DNA of 64,000 bases, taken from the NCBI GenBank assembly GCA_014905825.1, contig JACGCN010000009.1:1674001-1738000 (forward strand), written 5' to 3'. Made by a program: the position numbers and the translations under genes. Each line of letters opens with the position of its first letter. The first letter of the stretch is position 1. Positions 21,892-50,500 of the stretch are shown one piece after another. The notes beneath the pieces were generated by a model that ran no database searches, had not been told where the DNA came from, and saw nothing but the letters and a program-made list of their open reading frames with translations. Source of the DNA: Lyophyllum atratum. Lineage: Eukaryota > Basidiomycota > Agaricomycetes > Agaricales > Lyophyllaceae.

Positions 21892-24077
21892 CTAGTTCTC
21901 ATCATCGGACAAGACAAGATCCGTCCACTCTTTCTTGGCTGCCTCAAAGTCGACATCTCCCAACTGAATCGCACGGCTGGCTGCCACGGTGTCGACCTTG
22001 GCATGTTTCCTGACCAGGTAAATTAAGTAATTTGAAAAACCATAACGGGCATTGCACGACATACTCACCGTGCATTCTTGAGGATGTGTTTGAGTAGACG
22101 AGGAACAATGTTTGCGTCCTTTGTGTTGGTTTCAAAACTCTTGAGTGTCTGGAGATGTACGTCGAATTTATCTTGATACCCGGTGACCGAAAATGGGACG
22201 TCCTGGTGCTCGCCGCTTTGCCATTCATCAAGGCAGCATTCAACCTGCAGGAGGGTCAGCGGGTGTCATAGTCAGGGGCTGGTTCACCAACCGCGGTCAG
22301 CACGAAGGCGATGGTGACGAGAGGTATTGCGTCATCAGTGGAGTACTCCTCGTGGGTAACCCCTTCGTCGGTCTTGCTTTTGAACCACATTTTGTTGACC
22401 ACAGCTTGGATGATGGGGTGGAGGTACATTCCGGTGCGCTTTGCAGGATCCTGAGCGAGAACAGTTAGTGACAATGCAACTACGTGAGTATAGAAGAATA
22501 CCTTGTAAAGAAAAGCAGATCTCTCAAGCAGATCCTCGACCTTGTTTCTGTTGGCACGTTTGCCATTCTCGCCGGCGAGACCATAGAGCGACTCCACGAG
22601 AGGTCGACAGAGTGTCTTGACCTGGCCGCGGGTCTGCGAAGACCTAGCTGTGATCTGGAGTATGACGGCCTCAGTGGATATTGTTGGACGAAAGAAGAAC
22701 ATGAAATGTACATACCAGTTTGAGGACGTCCTCATCAAATTCAACCTGCACGCCACGATCCTGGCAAGCTGCAACCCAAACAGCACCCGCCCACCCGCGA
22801 TCTTCATCACGGCTTGGGCAAGGGTTGATGGTACTGATGTGTGCGCGGTAAGAGACGATGGCGTCCTCCAAGATGTTCTTCGTGAACTCGTCGAAATCAG
22901 AAGCCCTTGGACGGCCGCGAGTTCCTGTCGTACCAGTCTTTGTCTTTTTGACGACAACAGTGGTTGAAGGTGCTGGGGTAGAGGGAGGATCCTTCCGAAC
23001 ACCGAGAGAAGAGTCCTGTCGAGTATCGCGCTCGTCACGTTGGGAAGACGGCCTACGCTCATGGCGCTCAGCCGGGAAGTGCTCGACATCGGTGTGGTGG
23101 TAATGGGTTGGCTCCTCGAAGTCGACACCTTCGTTTCCCACAGCAAACTCATCGTCGCTATCTATAATAAACATGATCATCATGCCCGTGTAAGCAGTAA
23201 GGAAGCTTAGATACATACACTGTGCATCTTGAGGGACGCGCTGATGGCGAGTATACTCAACGCCATCTGGCTGCTGGTAGTAGCCTTCAACACGAGGGGT
23301 ATAAGGTCCTGGGCGACGTCTGGGTGTTTCATTACGTGGCATTGAGGATGCTGGATGGCTAGAAGGGTTTCGCAGATTGATGAACGGTGCAGATACAGCC
23401 CTCGGTTCCATGACCGGCGGATCAGGGCGAGAGGCGCCAGGGAGTCTTCTGACCAGTTGCCGTCCAGGTGTAGGCTGGTATTGCTGCTGAACGCAATCAA
23501 AAGATGAACATGTGTCCATGAAGACGACTCACTTGGTCAGGCAGCGGGGCCTCATTTTCCTTGCCACTTACACGATGGACCAAAGTCCTCCCATTGCGAG
23601 TGGTGATCTTGATGGGAGGAGGAATGGTAACACTAGAAAACTGAGGACCAATGATGATGGGGATCTGATAAGAGATAAGGAAAAAGGACTTACAAAAGAC
23701 TCCTCTTCTTCATAGTCGTCGTCGCCGCCTGTGAAGTCAATTATGAGTCGTCGGATAGTGATACAGTTGATAGATACATACCGGCATCATTCTGGTCAGT
23801 ATTGCTGACGGTCAGCCGTGTGAAACCCCTGTGCTCCTCTTGCGCCTGTTCAGCACGAAGAGAGGCAACAAAAGCTCGTTTCTTGGCAGCTTCGGCTCTG
23901 GATGTTTCATCTGCGACTGGAAAATGAATGTATAAGATCGATACAAAAAAGGTGGATGGGAACCATACCTTTCTCTTTTTGTTTTTCAGTCAGCTTTCTG
24001 GAACGTCCCGTACTTGAGGGGGCTGGCTCGGGTACGGGCACAGGAGTGGCTTTAGCTGACTTGCGAGTGGCAGCCAT
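21892..24077 (-). CDS. DUF6532-like transposon accessory protein, copy 1, 576 aa
   Basis: Second gene of the element. Ten exons by eye: 24077-23969, 23916-23782, 23728-23694, 23664-23533, 23486-23219, 23161-22716, 22654-22502, 22450-22292, 22244-22069, 22009-21892 (1,731 nt, closes in frame). Residues 1-35 are basic (MAATRKSAKATPVPVPEPAP). Acidic and Ser/Pro-rich regions follow up to about residue 300. The C-terminal half is folded: FDEFTKNILEDAIVSYRAHI, DRGWAGAVWVAACQDRGV, ITARSSQTRGQVKTLCRPLV, FLYKDPAKRTGMYLHPIIQA, ECCLDEWQSGEHQ and DVHLQTLKSFETNT. That half resembles the fungal DUF6532 domain. It is probably a DNA- or transposase-associated factor, comparable in position to accessory proteins of CACTA elements; this role is inferred. 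One splice (donor gttggt at 22291) is non-ideal. Confidence 0.8.
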
Positions 24078-24345: not shown

Positions 24346-27009
24346 ATGTCTCACTTTTGTGGGTTTTGCGGAAAAGGCCCGTTTCCTACCCTTCCAGGGC
24401 TCTCTCGTCATATTCGCCAGACTGTTTCTTGTGACCGAGCTTCCAAAGAGGAGTTCGGCAAATTTTCCAACGATCTCTGGCAGCCGCAACCCGAAACGAC
24501 CGAAGCTGCTCAAGAGCAGCCACTTGTCGACAATCCAGAGCCTGCCATCGAGAATCTCATTGAGGATATCACCCACGCTGAGCAGAGCTTCGACATACCT
24601 GGCAGCCCGCCCGCTACACCGCAAACAGCAAACCCTTCCCCACGCCGAGCCACCGTTGAGGAAATTCCCGATGAGGACGCCCCACGGGTTCGAGATGAGC
24701 TCTATGTCGAATCCTGCCCTGCCGAGCTGAAGGCAGGTGCAACTTGGGGTGAAGGCACACCGCACTTTGAGGCTGTTCGTGAACGGCAGGAGGAGAACGG
24801 TGAAAGCAAATGGGGGCCCTTTCACGATGAAGAGGATTGGCAGCTGGGTGAATGGTTAATTCACAATGTTGGACAGAAGCAGACGGAGGCTTACTTGAAG
24901 CTTCCCATTGTAAGACCTGCTGTCCTGTCGTCGTTGCTCATCAACTGACCTATTCCTCAACTCCAGACACAGAATCGAACGAAACCTTCGTACGACGGCA
25001 ACCGCAACTTCCTGAAGAAGATTGACAGTCTGCCCACTCAGAGCCCCGAATGGATGTGCGACATTGTCACAGCTGCCGGAAATCGTCTGAACGAGGACGG
25101 ACAACCCATGGCCGCCGAAAACTTGGAATTGTGGCGACGGGACCCGGTAGAATGTATCAAGGAGTTGATAGGCAATCCAGCCTTCCATGATGCGATGACA
25201 TACACACCAGAACGGGTGTTCACGGACGAGGAAGGAACGAATCGTGTATACGGGGAGGCGTCGTCCGGAGATTGGTGGTGGGATACCCAAGTCGGTTCCA
25301 AAGTCTATTATCGATCAAAGCTTTAGTTTAACTCAGATACACATTGTAGAAAAAACTACCTGTTGGCTCCACCGTTGCGCCCGTCATCCTCTCATCTGAT
25401 AAGACACATTTATCCCAATATCGGGGTGATAAAAGTGCCTGGCCGGTCTACCTATCCATAGGAAACATAAGTAAGGCCATCCGTCGCAAGCCAAGCGCCC
25501 ATGCTACGGTGTTGATTGGTTACTTACCTGTCGCCAAACTGGACAACTTCACGGACGAGAGCCGTTCAGTTGAGAAATACCGTCTTTTTCATTACTGTAT
25601 GCGACGACTGCTTCATCCTTTAATCAAAGCAGGAAAAGAAGGGGTTGAGCTTACATGTGCTGATGGCTTCATCCGACGTGTCTTCCCAATTCTTGCTGCA
25701 TACGTCGCCGATTTCCCGGAGCAGTGTCTTGTCGCATGCTGCAAAGAAAGTTACTGTCCCAAGTGTCGAACTCGTCCTGACGAAAGAGGAGATCCCCAAC
25801 CTGGAACGCCCCGTAATCAGGAACGGAGCAAAGCCGTTTTGGAGCAGAAGAGAACAGGACGACGTGTACGGGCATTCGCAGACGAGGGCTTCCGTGCCGC
25901 ATTCCATCCTTTCTGGGCAGACCTACCTCACACGGACATCTTCACATGCTTTACTCCCGATATCCTTCATCAGCTCCACAAGGGTGTTTTCAAGGATCAT
26001 CTTATGAGCTGGTGTGTCGAGGTGGCGGGGGCTGACGAGATCGACGCCAGGTTTCGTGCTATGACTGGGTACCCAGGCCTCCGGTACTTCAAGAATGGCA
26101 TCTCCTTCGTTTCGCAGTGGACTGGCCGGGAGCACAAAGAAATGCAGAGGGTTTTCGTCAGTCTTCTTGGAGGAGCGGTCCAACCAGCAATTCTTCGTAC
26201 AGCAGCGGCGGTCGTGGATTTCATCTACTACGCACAGTTGCACATCCACACCTCAAAAACCCTGGCAGCATTGGAAGGAGCACTGAAGACGTTTCATGAG
26301 AACAAGGATATCTTTGTTCGTGAGGGCGTTCGAGAACACTTCAACATTCCCAAACTTCACCAAATGCTACACTATGTTGATGCCATCAAGTCCCGTGGCT
26401 CTGCCGATGGCTACAACTCCGAGTCGCCTGAGCGCCTTCACATCGACTATGCTAAGGATGCGTACCGAGCCACCAATAAACGGGAATATGTTAAGCAAAT
26501 GACTATTTGGCTTGGGCGCCAGGAGGCGGTAGCCCAGTATTCGGCGTACTTGGACTGGATCTCCCAACGCGACCATCGTATTCCTGATCCAGATGATGGC
26601 GACTCTGATGATGGAGATATGGACGAGTTATCGCTGAACCCTCCTGTGCCCAAGGCCACGGCATCATCCACACACACCGTTTCGTTAAACCCTGGCTTCC
26701 CGCAGCTGGACTTGACAACGATCTCGTCTCGCTTCAAAGCTCCCAACTTCCTTCCTTTACTCACCAGTTTTATCCGTAAATTCTATCCTCCGCCCAAGAA
26801 CCCAATGCTTCCGAACCACACTGACCGCTTTGACCTGTTTAAAAAATTATCAATCCACCTTCCCGATCTTCCTGCCATTGGCCGGTTCAAATCTTGTGAT
26901 CGCATTCGATGTACTCCATTGGTCCCCGCCACCCTTGGAAGACCTGCTGTTGGCGCCCACTTTGATACAGTCTTGGTACGCCGAGATGATGAACTTGACA
27001 ATGAGGTGA

Positions 27010-27599
27010 TGTAAGGGAACGGCTATCATTCCCTAGTAATGACCCCAGGGTTATGCCTTAACCCGATGGCTGGAGTTAAATACTGACTAAAAGGCAAGGT
27101 GGTAACAGAGGACTATGGTGTAGTGGTAACACGAGTCGCGGGTTCGACCCCCGCTAGTTCTAATTTCTTAGTCGCGGGTTCAATCCCCGCCTAAGCTGTT
27201 ACATTTGGTAGAACTACAGTGGGACTGTACTTCGTGACCAAGGCTTTGTGACATGTCAGGGACCTCTGTCCACTTAGCTGGCCTTTACCCTAGGGGGTCT
27301 AAGTCCTGAAATACCGGAGGCATCCCACCGAGAATGGATAAGGTACTTGATAGGGGTGCATGCCTTGATCCTAAAGACCTGCCGGAACAGGTCTTGGGGG
27401 GAGTATGTAAGGGAACGGCTATCATTCCCTAGTAATGACCCCAGGGTTATGCCTTAACCCGATGGCTGGAGTTAAATACTGACTAAAAGGCAAGGTGGTA
27501 ACAGAGGACTATGGTGTAGTGGTAACACGAGTCGCGGGTTCGACCCCCGCTAGTTCTAATTTCTTAGTCGCGGGTTCAATCCCCGCCTAAGCTGTTACA
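27010..27599 (+). mobile_element. TRIM (miniature LTR retrotransposon) with tRNA-like LTRs
   Basis: Two 194-bp direct repeats (27010-27203 and 27406-27599), identical by eye, begin TGTAAG and end TTACA (TG...CA ends). They flank about 202 bp of non-coding sequence. The 5-bp target duplication GGTGA is at 27005-27009 and 27600-27604; the empty site is visible in units 2, 2' and 3. A primer-binding site TGGTAGAACTA lies at 27206-27216, two bases after the left LTR. A polypurine tract (ggggggag) precedes the right LTR. No coding capacity, so it depends on an autonomous LTR element. The tRNA-containing LTR and 5-bp TSD match the TRIM class I recall under the name Helenus. LTR identity implies very recent insertion. 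Confidence 0.95.
27109..27162 (+). ncRNA. tRNA-like sequence inside TRIM LTR (second copy at 27505-27558)
   Basis: 54 nt that fold like a tRNA without an anticodon arm. A 7-bp acceptor stem pairs AGGACTA with TAGTTCT (one G-T). The D-arm/A-box is GTGTAGTGGTAACAC. A 5-bp T-stem GCGGG/CCCGC closes a TTCGACC loop (B-box GGTTCGACC), and a discriminator A follows. Only about 5 nt replace the anticodon arm. A and B boxes should recruit TFIIIC, giving a Pol III promoter. The D-arm wording recalls Gln/Glu/Val-class tRNAs. It cannot decode; a role in priming or transcription is inferred. Confidence 0.8.
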
Positions 27600-28229
27600 G
27601 GTGACCCGGGGCACGGCTTTGCAAGGTATGTCCCATATTTGCTTTATGGTTGGCTGCAATTGAATGGTCTGCTACCAAAGGACTCCGTGTCGCGCAAGTT
27701 AGGGCTATCTTTACCCTTCCCAAGCATCTCCAAGCCCCGCTGTTATCACAGAGGCTGGCCTATGTCGAATGGTTTACACCTTTGCGAACCCCCGATCCCG
27801 ATTCGAAGCTCCATTCAGTATCTCGCTCTATCCGGCAGCATGCTCCTGTCTCTGCAATTATTTCTCTGGAGGATATCGTTAGCAGTTGCCACCTTTCTCC
27901 GAAGTATGGTACTCGCCATCATGTAGGCTCATGGACCATGGACACGGCCCTTGAGGCATGTAAAACCTTTACTCTAAACAGGTACATCCATGTGGGAACA
28001 TTTTACGAGCATCAGTCGCACCTTTTTAAGTAGTTATGTTCCTTCCTAATTCTTTTGTTCTGTTGATGGTATGAAGTAGTCGGTTCTGCTTCAAAACCCA
28101 GACCACGTCACGATATAGTCTGGTAGGAATACATTTGTATTCAAAAATGTGATGCTACGAATCGTTCAGACAGTAAAAAGGTGGTCCAGGTCGCACCCGA
28201 TAGATCCCCAGCCTCTTGCACTCGGATGC

Positions 28230-34388: not shown

Positions 34389-37300
34389 ATGTCTCACTTT
34401 TGTGGGTTTTGCGGAAAAGGCCCGTTTCCTACCCTTCCAGGGCTCTCTCGTCATATTCGCCAGACTGTTTCTTGTGACCGAGCTTCCAAAGAGGAGTTCG
34501 GCAAATTTTCCAACGATCTCTGGCAGCCGCAACCCGAAACGACCGAAGCTGCTCAAGAGCAGCCACTTGTCGACAATCCAGAGCCTGCCATCGAGAATCT
34601 CATTGAGGATATCACCCACGCTGAGCAGAGCTTCGACATACCTGGCAGCCCGCCCGCTACACCGCAAACAGCAAACCCTTCCCCACGCCGAGCCACCGTT
34701 GAGGAAATTCCCGATGAGGACGCCCCACGGGTTCGAGATGAGCTCTATGTCGAATCCTGCCCTGCCGAGCTGAAGGCAGGTGCAACTTGGGGTGAAGGCA
34801 CACCGCACTTTGAGGCTGTTCGTGAACGGCAGGAGGAGAACGGTGAAAGCAAATGGGGGCCCTTTCACGATGAAGAGGATTGGCAGCTGGGTGAATGGTT
34901 AATTCACAATGTTGGACAGAAGCAGACGGAGGCTTACTTGAAGCTTCCCATTGTAAGACCTGCTGTCCTGTCGTCGTTGCTCATCAACTGACCTATTCCT
35001 CAACTCCAGACACAGAATCGAACGAAACCTTCGTACGACGGCAACCGCAACTTCCTGAAGAAGATTGACAGTCTGCCCACTCAGAGCCCCGAATGGATGT
35101 GCGACATTGTCACAGCTGCCGGAAATCGTCTGAACGAGGACGGACAACCCATGGCCGCCGAAAACTTGGAATTGTGGCGACGGGACCCGGTAGAATGTAT
35201 CAAGGAGTTGATAGGCAATCCAGCCTTCCATGATGCGATGACATACACACCAGAACGGGTGTTCACGGACGAGGAAGGAACGAATTGTGTATACGGGGAG
35301 GCGTCGTCCGGAGATTGGTGGTGGGATACCCAAGTCGGTTCCAAAGTCTATTATCGATCAAAGCTTTAGTTTAACTCAGATACACATTGTAGAAAAAACT
35401 ACCTGTTGGCTCCACCGTTGCGCCCGTCATCCTCTCATCTGATAAGACACATTTATCCCAATATCGGGGTGATAAAAGTGCCTGGCCGGTCTACCTATCC
35501 ATAGGAAACATAAGTAAGGCCATCCGTCGCAAGCCAAGCGCCCATGCTACGGTGTTGATTGGTTACTTACCTGTCGCCAAACTGGACAACTTCACGGACG
35601 AGAGCCGTTCAGTTGAGAAATACCGTCTTTTTCATTACTGTATGCGACGACTGCTTCATCCTTTAATCAAAGCAGGAAAAGAAGGGGTTGAGCTTACATG
35701 TGCTGATGGCTTCATCCGACGTGTCTTCCCAATTCTTGCTGCATACGTCGCCGATTTCCCGGAGCAGTGTCTTGTCGCATGCTGCAAAGAAAGTTACTGT
35801 CCCAAGTGTCGAACTCGTCCTGACGAAAGAGGAGATCCCCAACCTGGAACGCCCCGTAATCAGGAACGGAGCAAAGCCGTTTTGGAGCAGAAGAGAACAG
35901 GACGACGTGTACGGGCATTCGCAGACGAGGGCTTCCGTGCCGCATTCCATCCTTTCTGGGCAGACCTACCTCACACGGACATCTTCACATGCTTTACTCC
36001 CGATATCCTTCATCAGCTCCACAAGGGTGTTTTCAAGGATCATCTTATGAGCTGGTGTGTCGAGGTGGCGGGGGCTGACGAGATCGACGCCAGGTTTCGT
36101 GCTATGACTGGGTACCCAGGCCTCCGGTACTTCAAGAATGGCATCTCCTTCGTTTCGCAGTGGACTGGCCGGGAGCACAAAGAAATGCAGAGGGTTTTCG
36201 TCAGTCTTCTTGGAGGAGCGGTCCAACCAGCAATTCTTCGTACAGCAGCGGCGGTCGTGGATTTCATCTACTACGCACAGTTGCACATCCACACCTCAAA
36301 AACCCTGGCAGCATTGGAAGGAGCACTGAAGACGTTTCATGAGAACAAGGATATCTTTGTTCGTGAGGGCGTTCGAGAACACTTCAACATTCCCAAACTT
36401 CACCAAATGCTACACTATGTTGATGCCATCAAGTCCCGTGGCTCTGCCGATGGCTACAACTCCGAGTCGCCTGAGCGCCTTCACATCGACTATGCTAAGG
36501 ATGCGTACCGAGCCACCAATAAACGGGAATATGTTAAGCAAATGACTATTTGGCTTGGGCGCCAGGAGGCGGTAGCCCAGTATTCGGCGTACTTGGACTG
36601 GATCTCCCAACGCGACCATCGTATTCCTGATCCAGATGATGGCGACTCTGATGATGGAGATATGGACGAGTTATCGCTGAACCCTCCTGTGCCCAAGGCC
36701 ACGGCATCATCCACACACACCGTTTCGTTAAACCCTGGCTTCCCGCAGCTGGACTTGACAACGATCTCGTCTCGCTTCAAAGCTCCCAACTTCCTTCCTT
36801 TACTCACCAGTTTTATCCGTAAATTCTATCCTCCGCCCAAGAACCCAATGCTTCCGAACCACACTGACCGCTTTGACCTGTTTAAAAAATTATCAATCCA
36901 CCTTCCCGATCTTCCTGCCATTGGCCGGTTCAAATCTTGTGATCGCATTCGATGTACTCCATTGGTCCCCGCCACCCTTGGAAGACCTGCTGTTGGCGCC
37001 CACTTTGATACAGTCTTGGTACGCCGAGATGATGAACTTGACAATGAGGTGACCCGGGGCACGGCTTTGCAAGGTATGTCCCATATTTGCTTTATGGTTG
37101 GCTGCAATTGAATGGTCTGCTACCAAAGGACTCCGTGTCGCGCAAGTTAGGGCTATCTTTACCCTTCCCAAGCATCTCCAAGCCCCGCTGTTATCACAGA
37201 GGCTGGCCTATGTCGAATGGTTTACACCTTTGCGAACCCCCGATCCCGATTCGAAGCTCCATTCAGTATCTCGCTCTATCCGGCAGCATGCTCCTGTCTC

Positions 37301-40468: not shown

Positions 40469-41146
40469 TCACCAGTTTTATCCGTAAATTCTATCCTCCG
40501 CCCAAGAACCCAATGCTTCCGAACCACACTGACCGCTTTGACCTGTTTAAAAAATTATCAATCCACCTTCCCGATCTTCCTGCCATTGGCCGGTTCAAAT
40601 CTTGTGATCGCATTCGATGTACTCCATTGGTCCCCGCCACCCTTGGAAGACCTGCTGTTGGCGCCCACTTTGATACAGTCTTGGTACGCCGAGATGATGA
40701 ACTTGACAATGAGGTGACCCGGGGCACGGCTTTGCAAGGTATGTCCCATATTTGCTTTATGGTTGGCTGCAATTGAATGGTCTGCTACCAAAGGACTCCG
40801 TGTCGCGCAAGTTAGGGCTATCTTTACCCTTCCCAAGCATCTCCAAGCCCCGCTGTTATCACAGAGGCTGGCCTATGTCGAATGGTTTACACCTTTGCGA
40901 ACCCCCGATCCCGATTCGAAGCTCCATTCAGTATCTCGCTCTATCCGGCAGCATGCTCCTGTCTCTGCAATTATTTCTCTGGAGGATATCGTTAGCAGTT
41001 GCCACCTTTCTCCGAAGTATGGTACTCGCCATCATGTAGGCTCATGGACCATGGACACGGCCCTTGAGGCATGTAAAACCTTTACTCTAAACAGGTACAT
41101 CCATGTGGGAACATTTTACGAGCATCAGTCGCACCTTTTTAAGTAG
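40469..41146 (+). pseudogene. Plavaka transposase fragment (3' part only), unit 2'
   Basis: Begins inside exon 3 at the codons for [18 protein letters not shown] and contains the exon 3 end (40738) and exon 4 (40794-41146). The zinc finger and catalytic core are missing, so it cannot encode transposase. It results from the truncation that joins it to unit 2 sequence at 40467/40468. Confidence 0.95.
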
Positions 41147-47502: not shown

Positions 47503-50500
47503 ATGTCTCACTTTTGTGGGTTTTGCGGAAAAGGCCCGTTTCCTACCCTTCCAGGGCTCTCTCGTCATATTCGCCAGACTGTTTCTTGTGACCGAGCTTC
47601 CAAAGAGGAGTTCGGCAAATTTTCCAACGATCTCTGGCAGCCGCAACCCGAAACGACCGAAGCTGCTCAAGAGCAGCCACTTGTCGACAATCCAGAGCCT
47701 GCCATCGAGAATCTCATTGAGGATATCACCCACGCTGAGCAGAGCTTCGACATACCTGGCAGCCCGCCCGCTACACCGCAAACAGCAAACCCTTCCCCAC
47801 GCCGAGCCACCGTTGAGGAAATTCCCGATGAGGACGCCCCACGGGTTCGAGATGAGCTCTATGTCGAATCCTGCCCTGCCGAGCTGAAGGCAGGTGCAAC
47901 TTGGGGTGAAGGCACACCGCACTTTGAGGCTGTTCGTGAACGGCAGGAGGAGAACGGTGAAAGCAAATGGGGGCCCTTTCACGATGAAGAGGATTGGCAG
48001 CTGGGTGAATGGTTAATTCACAATGTTGGACAGAAGCAGACGGAGGCTTACTTGAAGCTTCCCATTGTAAGACCTGCTGTCCTGTCGTCGTTGCTCATCA
48101 ACTGACCTATTCCTCAACTCCAGACACAGAATCGAACGAAACCTTCGTACGACGGCAACCGCAACTTCCTGAAGAAGATTGACAGTCTGCCCACTCAGAG
48201 CCCCGAATGGATGTGCGACATTGTCACAGCTGCCGGAAATCGTCTGAACGAGGACGGACAACCCATGGCCGCCGAAAACTTGGAATTGTGGCGACGGGAC
48301 CCGGTAGAATGTATCAAGGAGTTGATAGGCAATCCAGCCTTCCATGATGCGATGACATACACACCAGAACGGGTGTTCACGGACGAGGAAGGAACGAATC
48401 GTGTATACGGGGAGGCGTCGTCCGGAGATTGGTGGTGGGATACCCAAGTCGGTTCCAAAGTCTATTATCGATCAAAGCTTTAGTTTAACTCAGATACACA
48501 TTGTAGAAAAAACTACCTGTTGGCTCCACCGTTGCGCCCGTCATCCTCTCATCTGATAAGACACATTTATCCCAATATCGGGGTGATAAAAGTGCCTGGC
48601 CGGTCTACCTATCCATAGGAAACATAAGTAAGGCCATCCGTCGCAAGCCAAGCGCCCATGCTACGGTGTTGATTGGTTACTTACCTGTCGCCAAACTGGA
48701 CAACTTCACGGACGAGAGCCGTTCAGTTGAGAAATACCGTCTTTTTCATTACTGTATGCGACGACTGCTTCATCCTTTAATCAAAGCAGGAAAAGAAGGG
48801 GTTGAGCTTACATGTGCTGATGGCTTCATCCGACGTGTCTTCCCAATTCTTGCTGCATACGTCGCCGATTTCCCGGAGCAGTGTCTTGTCGCATGCTGCA
48901 AAGAAAGTTACTGTCCCAAGTGTCGAACTCGTCCTGACGAAAGAGGAGATCCCCAACCTGGAACGCCCCGTAATCAGGAACGGAGCAAAGCCGTTTTGGA
49001 GCAGAAGAGAACAGGACGACGTGTACGGGCATTCGCAGACGAGGGCTTCCGTGCCGCATTCCATCCTTTCTGGGCAGACCTACCTCACACGGACATCTTC
49101 ACATGCTTTACTCCCGATATCCTTCATCAGCTCCACAAGGGTGTTTTCAAGGATCATCTTATGAGCTGGTGTGTCGAGGTGGCGGGGGCTGACGAGATCG
49201 ACGCCAGGTTTCGTGCTATGACTGGGTACCCAGGCCTCCGGTACTTCAAGAATGGCATCTCCTTCGTTTCGCAGTGGACTGGCCGGGAGCACAAAGAAAT
49301 GCAGAGGGTTTTCGTCAGTCTTCTTGGAGGAGCGGTCCAACCAGCAATTCTTCGTACAGCAGCGGCGGTCGTGGATTTCATCTACTACGCACAGTTGCAC
49401 ATCCACACCTCAAAAACCCTGGCAGCATTGGAAGGAGCACTGAAGACGTTTCATGAGAACAAGGATATCTTTGTTCGTGAGGGCGTTCGAGAACACTTCA
49501 ACATTCCCAAACTTCACCAAATGCTACACTATGTTGATGCCATCAAGTCCCGTGGCTCTGCCGATGGCTACAACTCCGAGTCGCCTGAGCGCCTTCACAT
49601 CGACTATGCTAAGGATGCGTACCGAGCCACCAATAAACGGGAATATGTTAAGCAAATGACTATTTGGCTTGGGCGCCAGGAGGCGGTAGCCCAGTATTCG
49701 GCGTACTTGGACTGGATCTCCCAACGCGACCATCGTATTCCTGATCCAGATGATGGCGACTCTGATGATGGAGATATGGACGAGTTATCGCTGAACCCTC
49801 CTGTGCCCAAGGCCACGGCATCATCCACACACACCGTTTCGTTAAACCCTGGCTTCCCGCAGCTGGACTTGACAACGATCTCGTCTCGCTTCAAAGCTCC
49901 CAACTTCCTTCCTTTACTCACCAGTTTTATCCGTAAATTCTATCCTCCGCCCAAGAACCCAATGCTTCCGAACCACACTGACCGCTTTGACCTGTTTAAA
50001 AAATTATCAATCCACCTTCCCGATCTTCCTGCCATTGGCCGGTTCAAATCTTGTGATCGCATTCGATGTACTCCATTGGTCCCCGCCACCCTTGGAAGAC
50101 CTGCTGTTGGCGCCCACTTTGATACAGTCTTGGTACGCCGAGATGATGAACTTGACAATGAGGTGACCCGGGGCACGGCTTTGCAAGGTATGTCCCATAT
50201 TTGCTTTATGGTTGGCTGCAATTGAATGGTCTGCTACCAAAGGACTCCGTGTCGCGCAAGTTAGGGCTATCTTTACCCTTCCCAAGCATCTCCAAGCCCC
50301 GCTGTTATCACAGAGGCTGGCCTATGTCGAATGGTTTACACCTTTGCGAACCCCCGATCCCGATTCGAAGCTCCATTCAGTATCTCGCTCTATCCGGCAG
50401 CATGCTCCTGTCTCTGCAATTATTTCTCTGGAGGATATCGTTAGCAGTTGCCACCTTTCTCCGAAGTATGGTACTCGCCATCATGTAGGCTCATGGACCA

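Follow-up and report, generated by a model that had tools for sequence, protein, structure and literature searches.

The element and its family

A window of 64,000 nt from Lyophyllum atratum (contig JACGCN010000009.1 of assembly GCA_014905825.1) was analysed, and all coordinates given here are positions in this window. It holds a terminal-repeat retrotransposon in miniature (TRIM) at 27010-27599. The element is 590 bp long and consists of two identical long terminal repeats (LTRs) and an internal part of 202 nt. A tRNA-like unit, called the mimic below, lies in each LTR. The 3' end of the mimic, once CCA is added, is complementary to 11 contiguous bases of the element's own primer-binding site (PBS). 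LTR retrotransposons mostly borrow a tRNA of the host to begin DNA synthesis. We propose that this TRIM may instead encode its own reverse-transcription primer, and we give this reading a probability of roughly 0.5.

A TRIM had been claimed here by the initial annotation, and the identical LTRs, the target-site duplication and three exact empty sites bear this out. The empty site was composed of the rejoined flanks with a single GGTGA (115 nt), and three places in the window (36993, 40658 and 50107) carry it without any mismatch. No open reading frame (ORF) of 150 amino acids or more lies inside the TRIM, and the ORF upstream stops 5 nt into the left LTR. Runs of four or more T are absent; therefore, RNA polymerase III (Pol III) could read through the element. 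The A and B boxes, the PBS, a polypurine tract and the 5-bp target duplications identify the element, by its sequence features, as a TRIM of the Helenus type, as had been suggested.

The family was searched for in the organism's own assembly (64.76 Mb, 151 contigs), which was the only fungal genome in the analysis. It has at least eight loci, namely five full-length copies, one of them with a deletion, and three solo LTRs, all nearly identical. The flanks show a 5-bp target duplication at 8/8 loci, with eight different sequences. The left and right LTRs are identical in four of the five full copies. Since the copies and most of the LTR pairs have hardly diverged, the family looks young, and a usable primer should therefore have existed recently. 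The PBS is identical in all five full copies. The mimic 3' end is intact in 12 of 13 LTRs, and the whole 54-nt mimic is unaltered in 11. The two exceptions are L008, where one T-stem change lowers the Rfam score to 36.3 bits, and the left LTR of L005, from which 36 nt between two AGTCGCGGGTTC repeats are missing. Recombination or slippage between these repeats would explain the loss. An allelic empty site for L005 was not found in 20 kb of contig C75.

The tRNA mimic and its match to the primer-binding site

The mimic scored 43.6 bits with the Rfam tRNA model (RF00005; gathering score 29, E 6.4e-07). The model covers the mimic end to end; an acceptor stem, a D arm and a T arm are present and the anticodon arm is absent. 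Therefore, the mimic cannot decode. All seven pairs of the acceptor stem (AGGACTA/TAGTTCT) are formed, six of them Watson-Crick and the other G3-U70, and the discriminator is A (positions follow our own tRNA numbering). The D loop contains GG and the T loop is TTCGACC. The consensus of the A box is TRGYNNARNNGG and that of the B box is GGTTCRANYCC (the boxes of the mimic are given in Table 1). The A1-U72 pair is presumably reminiscent of initiator tRNA, while G3-U70 and A73 together recall the alanine identity element that alanyl-tRNA synthetase presumably recognises. The minimum-free-energy fold of the 54 nt retains all three stems (acceptor, D and T). ARAGORN, as run on the window, called 0 tRNAs. 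To our understanding, an acceptor stem is dispensable for a Pol III promoter, yet the complete stem has been kept here, which favours a self-encoded primer. Another T-arm-like hairpin lies 4 nt downstream of the mimic, and AGTCGCGGGTTC is common to both.

The PBS starts two bases after the left LTR, as annotated. The exact complementarity between the CCA-tailed mimic and the PBS, said to extend over 11 nt and to fail at the twelfth base, was reproduced; it is composed of eight encoded bases and CCA. The predicted duplex energy is -14.8 kcal/mol for the 11 bases and -7.2 for the eight encoded bases alone. In the shuffle test, the PBS was fixed, CCA was appended and the LTR letters were shuffled 5,000 times. 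At the mimic's own end position, 0/5,000 shuffles reached 11 (best 9), and 17/5,000 reached at least 11 when any LTR position was permitted as the RNA end. The per-site probability of the eight encoded bases is 1.5e-5 in an independent-letter (iid) model and 8e-6 in a Markov model. On the other hand, an unplaced cis match of at least 8 nt appeared in 112/2,000 shuffles and is hence ordinary. The significance comes from the register, which is fixed by the tRNA fold and the 2-nt gap, and not from the 8-nt match itself. Pure coincidence would draw on the fact that a single match of eight encoded bases in a single family was picked out after many features had been inspected. Considering both counts out of 5,000, it is extremely unlikely.

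The two regions could also pair in cis. In this case, the encoded TAGTTCTA would pair with TAGAACTA in the same RNA for a structural purpose, such as packaging, masking of the PBS or Tf1-like self-priming after internal cleavage, and no separate tRNA-like primer would be made. When the 14-nt PBS was compared with the whole LTR, the mimic end indeed gave the longest contiguous complementarity (eight encoded bases; the next best was six), a result that counts for the self-encoded primer as well. However, cis matches of this length are common in the shuffles, and the TGG that matches CCA is left unexplained. Moreover, in the predicted fold of a 323-nt transcript the PBS has another partner and 27155-27162 is single-stranded, with the T stem and the second hairpin retained. 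As to self-priming, the first 11 bases of Tf1 RNA, cut by RNase H, serve as the primer on the PBS according to the accessible part of PMC7175516, whereas no LTR segment besides the mimic end matches the present PBS over more than six contiguous bases. Pairing in cis is thus considered very unlikely.

Table 1. Positions of the features of the TRIM in the window
Feature	Position	Strand	Basis
Left target-site duplication GGTGA (right copy 27600-27604)	27005..27009	.	flank sequence
Left LTR, 194 nt, TGTAAG...GCTGTTACA	27010..27203	+	LTR comparison
tRNA mimic, left LTR, 54 nt	27109..27162	+	Rfam match; fold
A box TGGTGTAGTGG in left-LTR mimic	27116..27126	+	sequence
B box GGTTCGACCCC in left-LTR mimic	27141..27151	+	sequence
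Mimic 3' end TAGTTCTA, complementary to PBS with added CCA	27155..27162	+	pairing, shuffles
Second T-arm-like hairpin CTTAG-TC-GCGGG-TTCAATC-CCCGC-CTAAG	27167..27195	+	sequence, predicted fold
TT gap, 2 bases, LTR to PBS	27204..27205	+	sequence
PBS TGGTAGAACTA, 11 nt pairing with mimic and CCA	27206..27216	+	sequence, complementarity
PBS in 14-nt form TGGTAGAACTACAG	27206-27219	+	extent given in the initial annotation
Putative polypurine tract TTGGGGGGAG	27394..27403	+	sequence; 2 bases before right LTR
Right LTR, 194 nt	27406..27599	+	LTR comparison
tRNA mimic, right LTR	27505..27558	+	Rfam match

Host tRNAs and related elements in the assembly

Host tRNAs were examined by sequence patterns. 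With at most one mismatch, a T arm that runs directly into TAGTTCTA occurs at 15 places of the whole assembly, against 21 in the backward-read control. Twelve of these were exact, and all twelve lie within the TRIM family; no exact place was found in the assembly outside it. At the three places with one mismatch, ARAGORN calls no tRNA. Among 29 distinct tRNA calls, in which near-duplicates are counted and the isoacceptor set is incomplete, the best host 3' end agreed with the 11-nt PBS at 8/11 bases and the longest contiguous match was six. A general host-tRNA pattern matched 532 places (control 219), of which the first, as far as contig C57, were covered.

The motif CTGTAG in the PBS complement gave the idea of tRNA-Tyr, which was judged to be the sole anticodon-loop primer able to fit. 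This candidate was rejected, because the loop is CTGTAA in the two gene copies read. A Tyr 5'-exon pattern ending in CTGTAG had 0 matches in the assembly. The same Tyr-type 5' exon was present at 15 of 22 pattern places, and the two that were read (L098 and L099) carry GCAAGACTGTAA before the intron. The initial annotation had fixed beforehand that a host tRNA 3' end matching the PBS would speak against it. None appeared, nor did a fitting Tyr anticodon loop, and the claim stands as far as the patterns reach.

Twenty tRNA-Ile(AAT) loci were fetched, and 16 of them form eight pairs by their 40-nt flanks. The partners are on different contigs, mostly C75 and C79 in reverse order and also C64 and C82. 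The one pair measured was ~86% identical over some 3 kb. Judged from these tRNA-Ile pairs, the assembly seems to hold two separate haplotypes. Therefore, a tRNA absent from both is less likely.

These data bear on the possibility that an ordinary host RNA, missed by the assembly or by the patterns, is the primer and that the mimic match is a coincidence or a by-product. A tRNA in an unassembled stretch, a tRNA with an odd T arm, a tRNA half or a mitochondrial tRNA could take this role. That the host tRNA set was surveyed by patterns speaks for it, and so does the initiator-tRNA pattern, which gave 0 places in the assembly. In addition, the PBS of most fungal Helenus elements fits a tRNA anticodon loop, as stated in the accessible part of PMC10886601. 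Against it, the one-mismatch T-arm search gave just three chance-level places beyond the family, a tRNA would have to be missing from both apparent haplotypes, and a match in register arises by chance at about 1e-5 per site. A host primer of this kind is therefore regarded as rather unlikely.

Partner elements were sought with the PBS. Its 14-nt form was found exactly only in the five full copies. With one mismatch allowed it has 24 places in all, the 5 exact ones and 19 others, while the backward-read control has 48. None of the 19 coincides with a tRNA call, and none has a repeat that ends there within 1.5 kb on each side, a range in which a long element would be overlooked. CA-NN-TGGTAGAACTA occurs at five places in the assembly, all in this TRIM; accordingly, no autonomous element sharing the 11-nt PBS at CA-NN spacing was found in the assembly. 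A pattern search for armless mimics gave 15 places, 13 in the TRIM family and two others, L112 and L113. Neither is retained as a sibling: L112 is a tRNA gene with an intron, and L113 has no Rfam tRNA match and no surrounding LTR-like repeat. The mimic core had 0 matches in viral contigs.

Proposed priming mechanism and relation to known systems

The acceptor/T-arm half of a tRNA, which is present in the mimic, is the part on which RNase P, tRNase Z and the CCA-adding enzyme work. We infer that the mimic would be transcribed by Pol III from an LTR, that these enzymes would trim it and attach CCA, so that a 57-nt RNA ending in TAGTTCTACCA results, and that this RNA could prime the element. It may come from the right LTR, the left LTR or a solo LTR, that is, from any LTR that retains the mimic end. 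The RNA would then anneal to the PBS of a full-length RNA in a particle supplied by some autonomous LTR retrotransposon and prime minus-strand DNA. In a variant, tRNase Z would cut the genomic RNA at the right-LTR mimic, and its CCA-tailed 3' end would prime a second RNA. Because the match is exact in register, no host counterpart was found and the family looks young, the simplest account takes the mimic to be the primer now or to have been it until very recently. The stronger version is held with slightly less than even confidence; in it, the element carries in its LTR a tRNA without anticodon whose dedicated task is to prime the element's reverse transcription, so that a host tRNA is no longer needed as primer.

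Several results weigh against a self-encoded primer, in addition to the pattern-based host search and the missing initiator tRNA. The pairing ends at 11 nt, as position 12 is unpaired. Over 18 nt, 15/18 bases pair, and three T-stem mismatches fall at positions 65, 64 and 62. These mismatches are the main weakness, since they should disappear if 18 bases of the primer were copied into each new PBS during plus-strand synthesis. They would, on the other hand, be kept in elements without inheritance of the primer sequence (Ty1). The fold stability of the mimic is shuffle-like (z -0.37). The predicted fold of the 323-nt transcript lacks the acceptor stem and pairs the PBS with 27228-27240. The mimic end and the PBS are invariant across the copies, so that there is no covariation. 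Finally, the left LTR of L005 has no mimic end, while its right LTR retains it; the loss is taken as a later deletion.

The three mismatches could be accounted for by shared descent. Here, the tRNA-like unit of the LTR and the PBS would both derive from one former primer tRNA, possibly because reverse transcription ran on into the primer, and the only present role of the mimic would be that of a Pol III promoter. The host gene would since have been lost or changed. The weak similarity past 11 nt agrees with this, and the PBS complement CCCACTGTAGTTCTACCA itself looks as if it could be the 3' end of a tRNA whose T stem differs, with C61 retained. The end of the former primer tRNA would read CACTGTAGTTCTA. 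However, a host tRNA with such a 3' end was not found in the pattern search, although the family looks recently active. Shared descent is unlikely in our view; the related alternative of the initial annotation, the capture of the 3' end of a former primer tRNA, could also hold.

If the TRIM does make its own tRNA-like primer, the picture of borrowed host tRNAs changes. The retention of an acceptor stem unnecessary for a promoter would be explained, and selection on tRNA-like sequences in LTRs would become directly testable. An engineered tRNA-like primer reportedly complements a PBS-impaired murine leukemia virus vector in work by Lund et al. from 1997. Judged by its title, that system is alike in that a tRNA-like RNA primes via a matched PBS and differs in that the primer is artificial and supplied in trans. 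A literature search whose coverage left out most subscription journals brought up no natural element that encodes a tRNA-like primer of its own.

The closest relatives are the Helenus elements (TRIMp3; Kojima 2024, PMC10886601). According to the accessible part of that survey, they are non-coding TRIMs below ~1 kb that have two LTRs, a tRNA-derived LTR sequence with A and B boxes, and a PBS and polypurine tract bounding the internal part (here each two bases from the LTR). In fungi they have 5-bp target duplications, their hosts include basidiomycetes and among these Agaricomycetes, and they are mobilised by a Copia element. Unlike them, the present mimic has no anticodon arm and the PBS pairs with it. 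A PBS directed at a tRNA anticodon loop is the rule in fungal Helenus, with some exceptions, and the same part of PMC10886601 reports no complementarity between the tRNA-like sequence and the PBS, which also counts against a self-encoded primer. The 11-nt match contradicts this published negative, and the family is a counterexample to the survey. In a meeting report (PMC12859917), the accessible Helenus passage deals with transcription only. Cassandra and Ajax are likewise TRIMs with an LTR sequence derived from a Pol III gene, but theirs comes from 5S rRNA and no primer role is proposed for it in the accessible part of PMC10886601. Tf1-type elements also take the primer from their own RNA with 11 bases pairing with the PBS (PMC7175516, accessible part); here, by contrast, the bases that pair belong to an internal tRNA-like 3' end, to which CCA has to be added.

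A transposon-like segment is repeated in the window, around 25509, 35552, 40658 and 48666. The ORF directly upstream (25509-27014) contains a Plavaka transposase domain (PF18759), which is also found in the ORF at 35552, and the ORF at 22256 contains DUF6532. Plavaka is typical of agaricomycetes. ORFs at 48666, 32299 and 45414, equal or nearly equal in length, suggest further copies of the segment, and the exact empty site at 40658 points to one more, partial copy.
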